Positions 27,842 through 32,993 of a DNA stretch of 64,000 bases are shown here, piece after piece; the first letter of the stretch is position 1, and each line of letters opens with the position of its first letter. The DNA lies in the NCBI GenBank assembly GCA_028685185.1, contig JAQUEK010000001.1, forward strand, positions 190,338-254,337, given 5' to 3'. The translations under genes and the position numbers were made by a program. The notes under the pieces were generated by a model. The model did no database searches and was not told the origin of the DNA. It saw only the letters and a program-made list of their open reading frames with translations. This DNA is from Candidatus Altimarinota bacterium. GTDB taxonomy: Bacteria > Patescibacteriota > Gracilibacteria > BD1-5 > UBA2023.

Positions 27842-28821
27842 AAGTTAGATTTTTTAAAGAATATTTTAGTAAAAATTGTGGAAAATCCTATCTGTACAAG
27901 ATAACTCAGTGCAAAAACCAACATAAAAGAAGTCGAGAAATACTGCGCATAAAGAAAAGAGAATATTAAACCCAGAGTTAAAAATCTTGTTATTCATATC
28001 CAAAAGAGACTTCTGGATTCTGGCGAATCTCAAAGCTTTTTAAAAATAAAAAAATTTATCGTAAACATTATGATATAGACTAAAATTACTAGTCCAAAAA
28101 TTTTACTTAAATATATCAGATTCATATTAAAAACCAGATGTAATTGTTTTAACGCGAATATATAAAAAATTACAGAAAAAGATCATATTTGAGTAAGAAT
28201 GCTTTTTTTACTGATAATAAAACTAGAAATTTTGGGGAATAGATTAAATATTCTTGATAAGATAAACGGAAAAAAAACTAAAACCAGAAGTCAACTAAAA
28301 GGACTTACTCATCATTCTGTTGAATTTCAGCAACTAAAATTCTTGGTCAATTCTGTAGCATCACAAGAAAATTCTGCAGGATTTATCATAAATTCATGTC
28401 CTATTTTTTGCAAATAAAAATCAAGTGGAAAAAATATGACAGTAAAAATCAATAGATTCAAAACAAAAAGATTGAATCATAACTTCGTATTGGCTCAAGT
28501 TTTAGTAATCCAGCTCATCACAAGTCATCATCAGCTAAGCAGGCTAAGCAATAAAAAAGCATAGAGCACTGAAGACTTGCCAAAAATCAAATAAGCTAAC
28601 CCGATTCAAACAACAGGAAATATCAAGTAATTTATAATCAGATTAAGATAAAAAAATTTTGGAAATTTCTTGATGATCAGTAAATCCTTGTAATGTATTT
28701 CCATTAGAGGCGGTAAAATAAGAAAAACTGCTGCTATTATACAAAGTACAGAGGTAAAAGGTATTCATCAAAATAAGTAATTTACAATGATTCAAGATAA
28801 TATTGCCATAAGGTTAACCAT
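27832..28821 (-). CDS. BASS/ACR3-type membrane permease
   Basis: A 329-residue protein with about nine to ten TM segments. LILPPLMEIHYKDLL, then INYLIFPVVGIGLAYLIFG and the conserved unwound-helix region LLSLLSGGGLVMSWITKTGA, followed by NTKLGFNLFVLNLLIF, resemble arsenite efflux ACR3 and bile-acid:sodium symporters (consensus PCaamvivWt.lAkGN). The Cys and Asn of true ACR3 are not evident, so the substrate is open. It overlaps the following gene by 10 nt. Confidence 0.6.
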
Positions 28822-28947
28822 ATTTTTTATTTAGTTATATATTTACTAATAAATATATTTAAATATAGTTATTTAACAAGAAAAATATCTTGCAAATGAA
28901 ATATATTTCATTATAATGAAACCTGTTTAATAATTAATTAAATTGTA

Positions 28948-29220
28948 ATGCCTAGAAATTGTAAGATAAGAACTATAAATCATAAGTTGCAAAGTAATTT
29001 CTTTAAGCCAAATGGAATTCCTCTTCATGAATTAGATATAAAAGAAGTTGGATCAGATGAAATTGAAGCACTAAGACTAGCTTACATTGAATGACTAAAT
29101 ATGGTAGATTGAGCTGTCAAAATGTGAATATCAGGTCCTACTTTCAATAGAATCCTTAATTCATGAATTACAAAAATCGCTGACGCTATAATTAATTCTA
29201 AGGCAATTAAAATTAGATAA
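28948..29220 (+). CDS. UPF0251/DUF134 putative DNA-binding protein
   Basis: A 90-residue protein matching the UPF0251 pattern: an N-terminal P-R-N-C segment, FKPNGIPLHELDIKEVGSDE, IEALRLAYIEGLNMVDGAVK, MGISGPTFNRILNSGITKIA and DAIINSKAIKI. It carries a sigma-70 region-4-like helix-turn-helix. Genes of this family often stand next to MPGRD-type Gly-rich proteins, and such a gene follows 38 nt downstream here. Confidence 0.9.
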
Positions 29221-29258
29221 TTATTCAGCAATTTATTTATTTTTTAATTTGAAATATT

Positions 29259-29489
29259 ATGCCAAATAGAGATAGGACTTGACCAAATGGTCAAGGAAGT
29301 AAGACTTGAAGATGAATGTGAGAATGTATAAATAATATAGATGATACTTCAGAAAATGAATTATTAGAAAAAATTCATTGTTGTAAAGATAATAAGGAAG
29401 CTACATTTTGAAAAAGAGATAGAACATGATATTGAATATGAAGATGAGCTTGAAAAAATTGAAATTGAATAAGATGTTGTGGCAGATAA
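29259..29489 (+). CDS. DUF5320-type Gly-rich small protein
   Basis: A 76-residue protein opening MPNRDRTGPNGQGSKTGRGM, clearly related to the MPGRDGTGPMGxGPMTGRGxG start of DUF5320 proteins. A C-terminal Gly/Arg-rich segment (GKRDRTGYGIGRGAGKNGNG) ends CCGR. Many of its glycines are TGA, giving a very high TGA density. The family is usually found with DUF134 and dinitrogenase-cofactor-like (NifX/NifB) proteins in anaerobes; none of the latter is visible here. Function unknown. Confidence 0.88.
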
Positions 29490-29550: not shown

Positions 29551-29847
29551 ATGAATAGTCCTAATTCAAAAGTTGTTATTCCTTTTTGAGTAGTTGAAAA
29601 ATATTATTTTTGATGAGTTAATGGTTTTTTAACTGATTTTAAAGACAAGATTAATATATTATTAGATGATAAAAATATTCACATAAAATGAAGTCAATAT
29701 TTTCCTGAATGTACAAATTTAATTGATTTTTGGAGGAATAGATGAGTGAAGGTTTTTAAGATGAAAGATTGAGAGATAGTATGGGATGAGATTTGTTTTG
29801 TAGATGAAAATGGGAAAATTCCTAATTATAGGTGTGACTGGATTTAA
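29551..29847 (+). CDS. Uncharacterised small protein, 98 aa
   Basis: Opens MNSPNSKVVIPFGVVEKYYFG, ends IPNYRCDWI. Aromatic-rich, probably a small globular beta-containing domain; no TM or signal peptide. Several glycines are TGA, so it belongs to the resident code. An A/T hairpin with a T tail (29988-30013) follows. No family recognised. Confidence 0.6.
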
Positions 29848-30013: not shown

Positions 30014-30053
30014 GATCAAAAAAACTTCCTTTGGCGCACGCCAAAGGAAGTTT
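30014..30053 (-). terminator. GC-rich terminator of the chemoreceptor gene
   Basis: AAACTTCCTTTGGC (30022-30035), loop GCAC, GCCAAAGGAAGTTT (30040-30053). On the minus strand the stem runs into T7. It is more GC-rich than other terminators in the window and probably arrived with the receptor gene. Confidence 0.88.
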
Positions 30054-30083: not shown

Positions 30084-31805
30084 TTAAATAAGTCATTGCA
30101 GGGCTTCAGGTTTCATTCCTACAATCACAGCTCCGAAATGCTGGCCTTTCACATAGATAGGCATGGAGATATCATGGAGAATCTGACCTGTATCGCGCAG
30201 ATATGTCTGAACAAGAAATGTTTCGGTGTTTTTTGCCCTTTTTATTTCTTGTTCATTTCCGACGTACATCCTTCTGTTTCTGCTTTTCAGCAAATCAACG
30301 CTGTAATCTCCAGTCAATGCGCATGAATTTGCTTTATGATGGGTTCCGACGTAGCCGTTAATATCGACGGCAAGGGAAAAAACCGCACCATTCAAATGAG
30401 TGAGACCTTCATCGAACATATATTGAAGTTCCCTATCGAAAACCTCATTGTAAGAAACGGTGAACTTCTGGGGGTTTGTGTTAGGGATAAGTTTGTAGTT
30501 CCTATCCAATACATTGACCCCCTTGTTTGCGATCTCTTCCATCTTCTCTTGAATATTATCGCGGAATCTGGATATCTGATTGATGGTTTCTTCAATCTTA
30601 CCTTTTCCAGCCTTGATTCTCGATGCTCTCTCAAGCATGGTTTCCGTCAATCTCTTGAGCTCGTTATTGAAGCTGTTTGATCTTGTCAGATAATCGAGAG
30701 TACTTAGACTCAAGGAATGGACATCTGTTATCTGTCTGCTCACCTCCTCATTAGTTACTGTAATCTCTTCAGTCGCCGAAGCGATTTCAACAAGCTTTGA
30801 ACTGTTGCTTTCCGAAGCCTTGACCAACAAGGTGAAATGTTCGAATGTACTCTCGATCACACGTTTCGTAACCACGATGCTCTGATCGATCTCGGCGGTT
30901 TCCTGCTGAGTTGATCTTACGTTTTTAAGCATCTCATCGATATTCTTCGAAATTTCTTTTGTTGCGATACTTACTCTTCCAGCAAGCGCCCTTACTTCAT
31001 CTGCGACAACAGCGAACCCTCTTCCATGCTCTCCTGCACGCGCAGCCTCAATGGCTGCATTAAGTGCAAGAAGGTTGGTCTGGTCCGAGATATCCTCGAT
31101 CAACGAGACGATATCCCTGATTTTTTCCGAATTGGAATTGAGTCCGCTTACTGTCAGATTGAAATCGTTCAGTTTCCTGGTGATCAGATCGATGCTGCCG
31201 TTCACATTCTTCAGTTCTTCCATCGAAGTCACTGCTGTCATATGATTGCTTCTGATGGATTCTGAAATGTTCTGGGTGCTCTGGGAAATCTCAATGATAG
31301 CCTGACTTGATTCTCTGCTTGAACACTGGATTATCTCAGACAATCCACCTTGTTTCTTCGCATTTTCCAAAGACTCCGCAACCTGCTTTATGACATTTGC
31401 CGATTGAACGGAAATCCCCAACGTGAATATCTTATTCTCCTCCATCATCTTTCTCAGCTCTTCAGCGAAGTTGTTGTAGCTTTCAGAAAGATCCCTGATC
31501 TCGTCAAAGGTGACAAGCGGAATATTCAACGAGAGATCGTTTGAACTGAAAGTATCGGTAATCTTCTTCAGAGGCCTTATGACAAGGAACCTGAGGAAGA
31601 TGATAAGCCCGATGGCACTGATCACAGATGTGATATAAAGTGCGACCGGGAGCCAATTTAGATCTTTTAAGAATCCGACATGTGGAACAATTATGATGAT
31701 CGTTTCCAAAAAAAGCAGAAAGCAGATGTTACCAGTGAATTTCTTGGTTAGAGAATTAAAGAAATGCTTCTCGACGAATGAGTACAGATACTTGAATGTC
31801 TTCAT
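30084..31805 (-). CDS. Methyl-accepting chemotaxis protein, horizontally acquired from a standard-code donor
   Basis: A chemoreceptor: two N-terminal TM helices (about 20-40 and 50-75), a HAMP segment ([12 protein letters not shown]), a signalling hairpin with [20 protein letters not shown] and [16 protein letters not shown], and a C-terminal sensor-like domain ([35 protein letters not shown]). All glycines are GGN; not one TGA occurs inside the 570 codons, unlike its neighbours. The original stop is TGA (30093-30095). In a UGA = Gly host, reading adds Gly-Leu-Ile to the TAA at 30084-30086. It has a strong AGGAG Shine-Dalgarno sequence. No che genes are in the window. Confidence 0.95.
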
Positions 31806-31995
31806 GGTAATCTCCTTTGATTGTGTTCGTTAAATTCACGATAAAATATGCCTATATGAATGAAAAAATCAATATGATTTACATTTTAAAGAACTTCTCC
31901 TTTTTTGCTTTTTATATTTGTTATTTTGAATAATATATAAAATGTATATTTAGTCAATAGATATATTGTTCCAGGATTATTATCTGTGACTTTAT

Positions 31996-32025: not shown

Positions 32026-32220
32026 ATTTATTATATTATGTTCTTAATGCTCTACTTGATTTTTTACTTCTTTTTGAGTACGAAGAGGAAATCGAATAGA
32101 GGGAAGAATTTGCGGAACAAATTCAGAAAGACAGTAACGCCTGTCTTTCGATCCCGACCCATCTCTGGCAGCAAAAGATAGCGAACGAGGAAGAACAATT
32201 CTATCTCCGGGCACCAAATA
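32026..32220 (+). other. Gene-poor remnant with hairpin and tRNA-Leu 3'-end copy
   Basis: The 612-nt interval 31806-32417 has no convincing gene. This part is less AT-rich than its surroundings and contains no TGA-bearing ORF. A GAAAGACAG/CTGTCTTTC hairpin lies at 32126-32149. Positions 32198-32218 match the 3' end of tRNA-Leu(CAA) (26729-26749) at 19 of 21 positions, 15 of them continuous through CCAAA, with vague similarity back to 32181. A 47-codon plus-strand ORF (32038-32181) is probably spurious. It looks like an att-site or tRNA-pseudogene scar. Confidence 0.6.
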
Positions 32221-32241
32221 AATACAATTCCTTACTAAAGC

Positions 32242-32417: not shown

Positions 32418-32993
32418 ATGATGAAATTATATATTATAAGACATTGAAAAACCACTCAATGAGAAAATGATATCATACTAGGGAGTTTACCTTGAACTCT
32501 TTCTGAAAAATGAATACAGGAAGCTCATAAAATCGGAAAATACTTATCATCTGAAAAATATGATATATCGAAAATAATAACAAGTGGCCTTGATAGGACG
32601 ATTCAAACCTGAAAAATTATTTCTGAATATATCAAAGTTCCAACTTCACAAAATTTTATAATCAATGAAAGGGATTCTTGAATTGCAGAATGAAAAAAAG
32701 AATCAGAGATCAACTGGGATTTATATGAAAAAAAATCTTTGCCCTATAGAAAACATTTAAATTGAGAAAGTTTCATTGATGTGAAAAAAAGAGCAAGAAA
32801 TTTTCTCAATTATATTAATACAAATCAAGGAAATATATGAATTTTAATAATATCGCATAGTGTTTTTATTCTTATGCTAATATCTTTAATAAAAAAAATA
32901 TCAATAAAGAAAGCCTTACAGATAGACATAAAAAATAAAATAATTTATTTTGATGTGAATACTAAAGAATTAAAATTACTAGATATCAATTAA
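32418..32993 (+). CDS. Histidine phosphatase superfamily protein
   Basis: A 191-residue protein starting MMKLYIIRHGKTTQGEND, the RHG catalytic motif of the phosphoglycerate-mutase/phosphatase superfamily. ITSGLDRTIQTGKIISEYI (second Arg) and LIISHSVFILML (second His) follow. The substrate is unknown; relatives include GpmB, CobC and SixA types. It starts at one of two tandem ATGs. Its stop overlaps, by 4 nt, the end of the convergent radical SAM gene. Confidence 0.88.

Follow-up and report, generated by a model that had tools for sequence, protein, structure and literature searches.

The chemoreceptor gene MCP1, at positions 30084-31805 on the minus strand of the window (the whole 64,000-nucleotide stretch of DNA analysed), was very probably acquired recently by horizontal transfer from a standard-code bacterium and is most likely a transient or near-neutral passenger, one of several imports into this code-25 genome (G000). 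Judged from sequence, the import as such, recent and from an ordinary-code bacterium, is almost certain, as the sequence-only reading of this DNA had proposed. Four marks support recent transfer: no internal TGA, a Shine-Dalgarno (SD) motif absent from native genes, outlying codon usage and a TGA stop. On the same kind of evidence MCP1 is not a single event but belongs to a set of imports that forms a recurrent class. The features of the locus are as follows.

30084-31805, minus strand: MCP1, methyl-accepting chemotaxis protein, 573 aa in the code-25 reading, terminal TAA
30093..30095, minus strand: original TGA stop of MCP1, Gly571 under the host code, then CTT ATT TAA (Leu-Ile-stop)
30711..31175, minus strand: MCP signalling domain (PF00015), residues 211-365, hairpin tip intact
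31452..31580, minus strand: HAMP-like linker, residues 76-118, Pfam match below cut-off
30096..30518, minus strand: C-terminal cytoplasmic domain, about residues 430-570, without a Pfam name
31812-31818, minus strand: Shine-Dalgarno AAAGGAG, 6 nt upstream of the ATG
about 30018-30053, minus strand: intrinsic terminator, inverted repeat AAACTTCCTTTGGCG-TG-CGCCAAAGGAAGTTT followed by a T run
29551..29847, plus strand: left neighbour, ORF of 98 aa, six TGA read as Gly
32418..32993, plus strand: right neighbour, histidine phosphatase, nine TGA read as Gly
27871..29482, no strand: left flank collinear with contig C15 of genome G011 (79% DNA identity), collinearity stopping at 29482

According to Pfam, MCP1 is a complete chemoreceptor. 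The PF00015 match reached E 3e-39 and 135 bits against a curated cut-off of 34.6, the HAMP score (24.2 bits) lies slightly below the cut-off of 25, and the N-terminal region has two apparent hydrophobic membrane segments as judged by eye. The C-terminal domain, which gave a pLDDT of 31 when modelled without an alignment, is probably a ligand-sensing module, and methyl-accepting chemotaxis proteins (MCPs) on Salinivibrio plasmids align with residues 194-566 at 33%.

The 570 codons before the original stop contain 25 glycines, all GGN, and no internal TGA, exactly as first described. The readings under table 11 and code 25 differ at G571 alone (TGA at 30093-30095), and in the code-25 frame the host would indeed add Gly-Leu-Ile. 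In 632 kb of G000 surveyed for glycine codons (54% of the genome), TGA accounted for 76.4% of them (9,357 of 12,251), and at this rate 25 successive GGN codons have a probability of about 2e-16. The neighbourhood is as rich in TGA as had been claimed, since besides the two flanking ORFs nearly all remaining long genes of the window carry several TGA each, up to 58. The GC content of MCP1 is 0.43 vs 0.31 and its GC3 0.50 vs 0.32, and its codon fit to the host table falls at the 0.6th percentile of native genes, i.e. worse than 99% of them. An anticodon-TCA tRNA, called SeC by ARAGORN, was found at L074 11908-11986 and is a candidate glycine tRNA reading UGA.

The ribosome site and the hairpin terminator reported by the sequence-only reading were both recovered. 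Among 368 native G000 genes, AGGAG within 22 bases of the start occurs in 0.3%, not more commonly than permuted motifs, and AAAGGAG in none. AGGAG precedes five of seven long TGA-free genes vs this 0.3% (P 1e-7), and every clear TGA-free gene has AAAGGAG, AGGAG or GGAGG at proper spacing. Native genes of G000, G011, G031 and G037 show SD motifs at or below the permuted-motif rate, and two SR1/Absconditabacteria genomes were reported to be SD-poor and to lack a conserved CCUCC in 16S rRNA (PMC10783764). Promoter matches did not exceed chance. We found no case for selection of an early stop behind the TGA, because 18% of native G000 stops likewise have a second stop within three codons and the receptor of G031 has no early second stop.

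The right flank shows no collinearity with G011, so that an empty site for MCP1 itself has support from the left flank alone. At 32058-32224 the window contains a small element of about 165 bp, a fragment of which recurs at G000:C3:1869-1923 and copies of which occur in G011 (L111 1490-1620, L117 1513-1655). In the G011 copies a common core is bounded at the start by the inverted complement, and at the end by a direct copy, of the 3' part of the adjoining tRNA (Glu or Leu), comprising T arm, acceptor and CCA. The element may be mobile and target tRNA ends, or it may be an RNA.

The earlier statement that no other chemotaxis gene is present holds within the checks made on the window, whereas the genome does contain others. 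Six long frames in the surveyed 632 kb are clearly set off from the rest by having 13 to 25 GGN codons without any internal TGA. They encode MCP1, a second receptor (MCP2), a CheW and three proteins that match no Pfam family above its cut-off, one with a weak CFI-box match (NCBIfam) and another with MORN repeats in appearance, by eye. MCP2 lies on contig C5, followed by an equally TGA-free gene for a periplasmic protein of 96 aa; the stand-alone CheW (C4:144162-144566, 125 bits) is the only CheW-domain match in G000. MCP2, its periplasmic partner, CheW and the three further genes all bear the two foreign marks of MCP1, absence of internal TGA and an SD motif. Most of the other TGA-free genes are codon-usage outliers as well, and two fall inside the native range. 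As MCP2 and CheW came from directed searches, the TGA-free genes are a biased sample; the 515 kb away from the loci so chosen contained three, and the rough estimate for the genome is about ten. Three chemotaxis genes among about ten imports would have a probability of about 1e-4, or 3e-3 leaving out MCP1, under an assumed background rate of 1%.

A comparable set is found in G011, which belongs to another genus of the same family. The end of its contig C4 carries the last codons of a receptor, the periplasmic gene, a small ORF and CheW, all without internal TGA, and its CheW terminates in TGA ATT AAT TAA. The periplasmic gene, present only in G000 and G011 among 99 genomes, is 59% identical between the two and CheW 55%. 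The median identity of orthologous native proteins of this pair is likewise 59%, so that identity alone cannot tell vertical descent from repeated transfer, whereas position does. In G011, 77 bases separate the genes that border the MCP2 insert of G000, and one of these genes is inverted; the insertions hence sit at different places in the two genomes. A receptor set ancestral to both was therefore rejected, separate insertions being more likely as positions differ and one site is empty. Further SD-led TGA-free genes of G011 encode a beta-CASP nuclease (L215 14915-16681), a protein with a weak endonuclease/phosphatase match (L215 8080-9048), a PilZ protein with its sole TGA near the end (L168 3160-3918) and a cyclic-nucleotide-binding protein (L205 10968-11336). 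Imports thus seem often to have regulatory functions.

Of 353 genomes of the class, about 30 have any receptor match. None of the 353 contains an MCP1 orthologue, the best match being MCP2 of G000 itself (31%), and orthologues using TGA internally, which would have spoken against import, were thus not found. Whether a receptor is TGA-free was judged only in genomes with enough TGA; high-GC receptor contigs in G007, G008, G017, G092 and others, where TGA is scarce, were omitted. TGA-free receptors were found in G037, G031, G049 and G012 (contig C21) as well. All five receptors read through in G037 are TGA-free, with 18 to 34 GGN each; this 1.4-Mb genome has at least five different ones (sCache_2, PilJ-like, FIST and others, on contigs C2, C3, C7, C20 and C50) and no CheA or CheW match. 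The G070 receptor is counted with them, its three TGA all lying close to its end, and that of G061 is consistent with the TGA-free pattern but lies on a 3.7-kb contig. In G031 (L063 9242-10396) the original TGA stop of the receptor precedes its terminator; read in code 25, the frame would continue across the hairpin and close at a TAA where the T run ends. In G031 and G049 a separate PAS protein gene lies upstream of the TGA-free receptor and overlaps its start, a layout that by analogy suggests Campylobacter-like (CetB-CetA) donors.

Two receptors are converted, with TGA for 47 of 60 glycines in G065 and for 21 of 24 in G012 (contig C77), and clear intermediates between TGA-free and converted receptors are lacking. 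The G065 receptor (L065 9934-11565) is full length and has both the HAMP and the MCP domain, in a 90% complete genome that gave no match to CheA or CheW; it has been long retained and so perhaps has a CheA-independent function. Its GC content also exceeds that of its genome, and part of the receptor GC excess therefore comes from amino-acid composition. Receptor GC3 loosely tracks host GC3 across genomes, which could reflect longer residence or donors of matching composition. We read the pattern among the relatives as one of import, usual loss and occasional retention.

The search for cheA and cheW in the rest of the genome, which had been suggested as a check, yielded CheW and no CheA dimerisation domain (H-kinase_dim) in G000. 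Among the 99 genomes, this domain occurs in one (G092), whereas CheW domains occur in four, with G000 either among these or in addition to them. The receptors of these genomes thus appear to be orphans. MCP1 accordingly has a CheW but no kinase and, lacking CheA, would be unable to signal in the usual way.

We propose that MCP1 was imported as a whole unit of ribosome site, chemoreceptor gene, TGA stop and terminator, and that it is one of several imports, which include MCP2 with its operon partner and CheW. A gene without internal TGA is legible in both codes, so that the barrier acts one way: import costs a short tail, here Gly-Leu-Ile, since the reassigned codon lengthens proteins that ended in TGA, and export of native genes is blocked. 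The likely route would be that type IV pili and ComEC took up DNA of the prey or host, which then integrated illegitimately, and the donor would then be the host. ComEC is present in G000 in native, TGA-rich form; Saccharibacteria are proven to be transformed in a ComEC-dependent manner (PMC10633639), and Vampirococcus and Strigamonas were suggested to take in DNA of their hosts (PMC8080830, PMC13059738). The donor clade expected from a homology search did not emerge: among 84,980 genomes scanned by pattern a single relative was found, at 36%, and the best plasmid match reached 33%. Phages gave no match, and among viral contigs neither MCP1 nor the periplasmic gene had a relative. MCP1 is most likely a transient or nearly neutral passenger and would lack a function; such passengers would sometimes be kept and slowly converted to TGA.

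It is improbable, in our judgement, that selection keeps these genes readable in the standard code for action in the host or prey cell, with DNA or mRNA delivered without TGA and with an SD. We give similarly little credence to the accompanying idea that receptor and CheW, having no CheA of their own, would join the chemotaxis array of the host. The host-style SD on all clear TGA-free genes and its absence from native genes, the presence of receptor and CheW without CheA, the set of MCP, periplasmic gene and CheW common to G000 and G011, and the known code-compatible phages of these bacteria (PMC10746230) would all agree with use in the host. Nevertheless, recent transfer predicts the same marks, and the surroundings of MCP1 showed neither a delivery signal nor a secretion gene. 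The low probability assigned follows from the foreign, unameliorated codon usage, from gene positions not conserved between genomes and from the two receptors converted to TGA. If true, signalling genes of the epibiont would be expressed inside a standard-code host and re-wire its chemotaxis.

An assembly chimera, in which a contaminant piece would have been joined into a code-25 contig, was the less exciting option of the sequence-only reading and appears highly improbable. GC and codon usage do break at both edges of MCP1, and collinearity with G011 ends at 29482. However, the foreign block would consist of one gene, flanked at distances of about 240 and 610 bases by native code-25 genes, in a contig of 316 kb from a genome with an estimated contamination of 1.37%, and the double TGA/SD mark recurs on C4, C5 and other contigs and within long contigs of independent genomes. 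That MCP1 is a native receptor avoiding TGA through protein or codon constraints is barely credible: the elevated GC of the converted G065 receptor would fit, but the two converted receptors, with 78-88% TGA, contradict it by showing that MCPs can carry TGA, and the improbable absence of TGA, the SD motif and the outlying codon usage speak against it.

The preferred reading, recent import of a passenger, has consequences beyond this gene. With TGA used for three quarters of native glycines and SD motifs nearly absent, recent standard-code imports become visible gene by gene without a database match. The two marks offer a way to list what uncultured epibionts take up, to derive a guess at their hosts, and to follow imports as they change from the standard code to code 25. 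That these bacteria acquire genes horizontally is already known (PMC8080830, PMC12455944); among the papers searched, none deals with import of chemoreceptors or CheW into code-25 genomes. It is unexpected, and testable, that chemotaxis parts were repeatedly imported where no CheA was detected.

Compared with known methyl-accepting chemotaxis proteins (PF00015), MCP1 shares the signalling hairpin with intact tip, a putative HAMP-like linker and two apparent N-terminal membrane segments, but differs in its genome without a found CheA, in a C-terminal extension without a Pfam name and in leaving TGA unused within a code-25 genome. The arrangement of PAS protein and TGA-free receptor in G031 and G049 resembles the bipartite energy-taxis receptors CetA/CetB of Campylobacter (PMC2628428), an analogy by domain layout alone and an arrangement absent from G000. 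The code 11/25-compatible phages of Gracilibacteria and Absconditabacteria (PMC10746230) likewise have no in-frame TGA and several different stops clustered at gene ends; those are entire phage genomes, whereas here single bacterial genes lie in a chromosome, and the integrated prophages of that study were all TGA-rich. In Vampirococcus lugosii (Absconditabacteria), 126 genes were acquired horizontally (PMC8080830), and the main text of that study does not mention CheA or methyl-accepting proteins. The two cases share the broad group, a predatory or epibiotic lifestyle and the suggested role of ComEC and pili for host DNA, while here it is the genetic code and the ribosome site, not a donor tree, that reveal import, and the imports include parts of the chemotaxis system.
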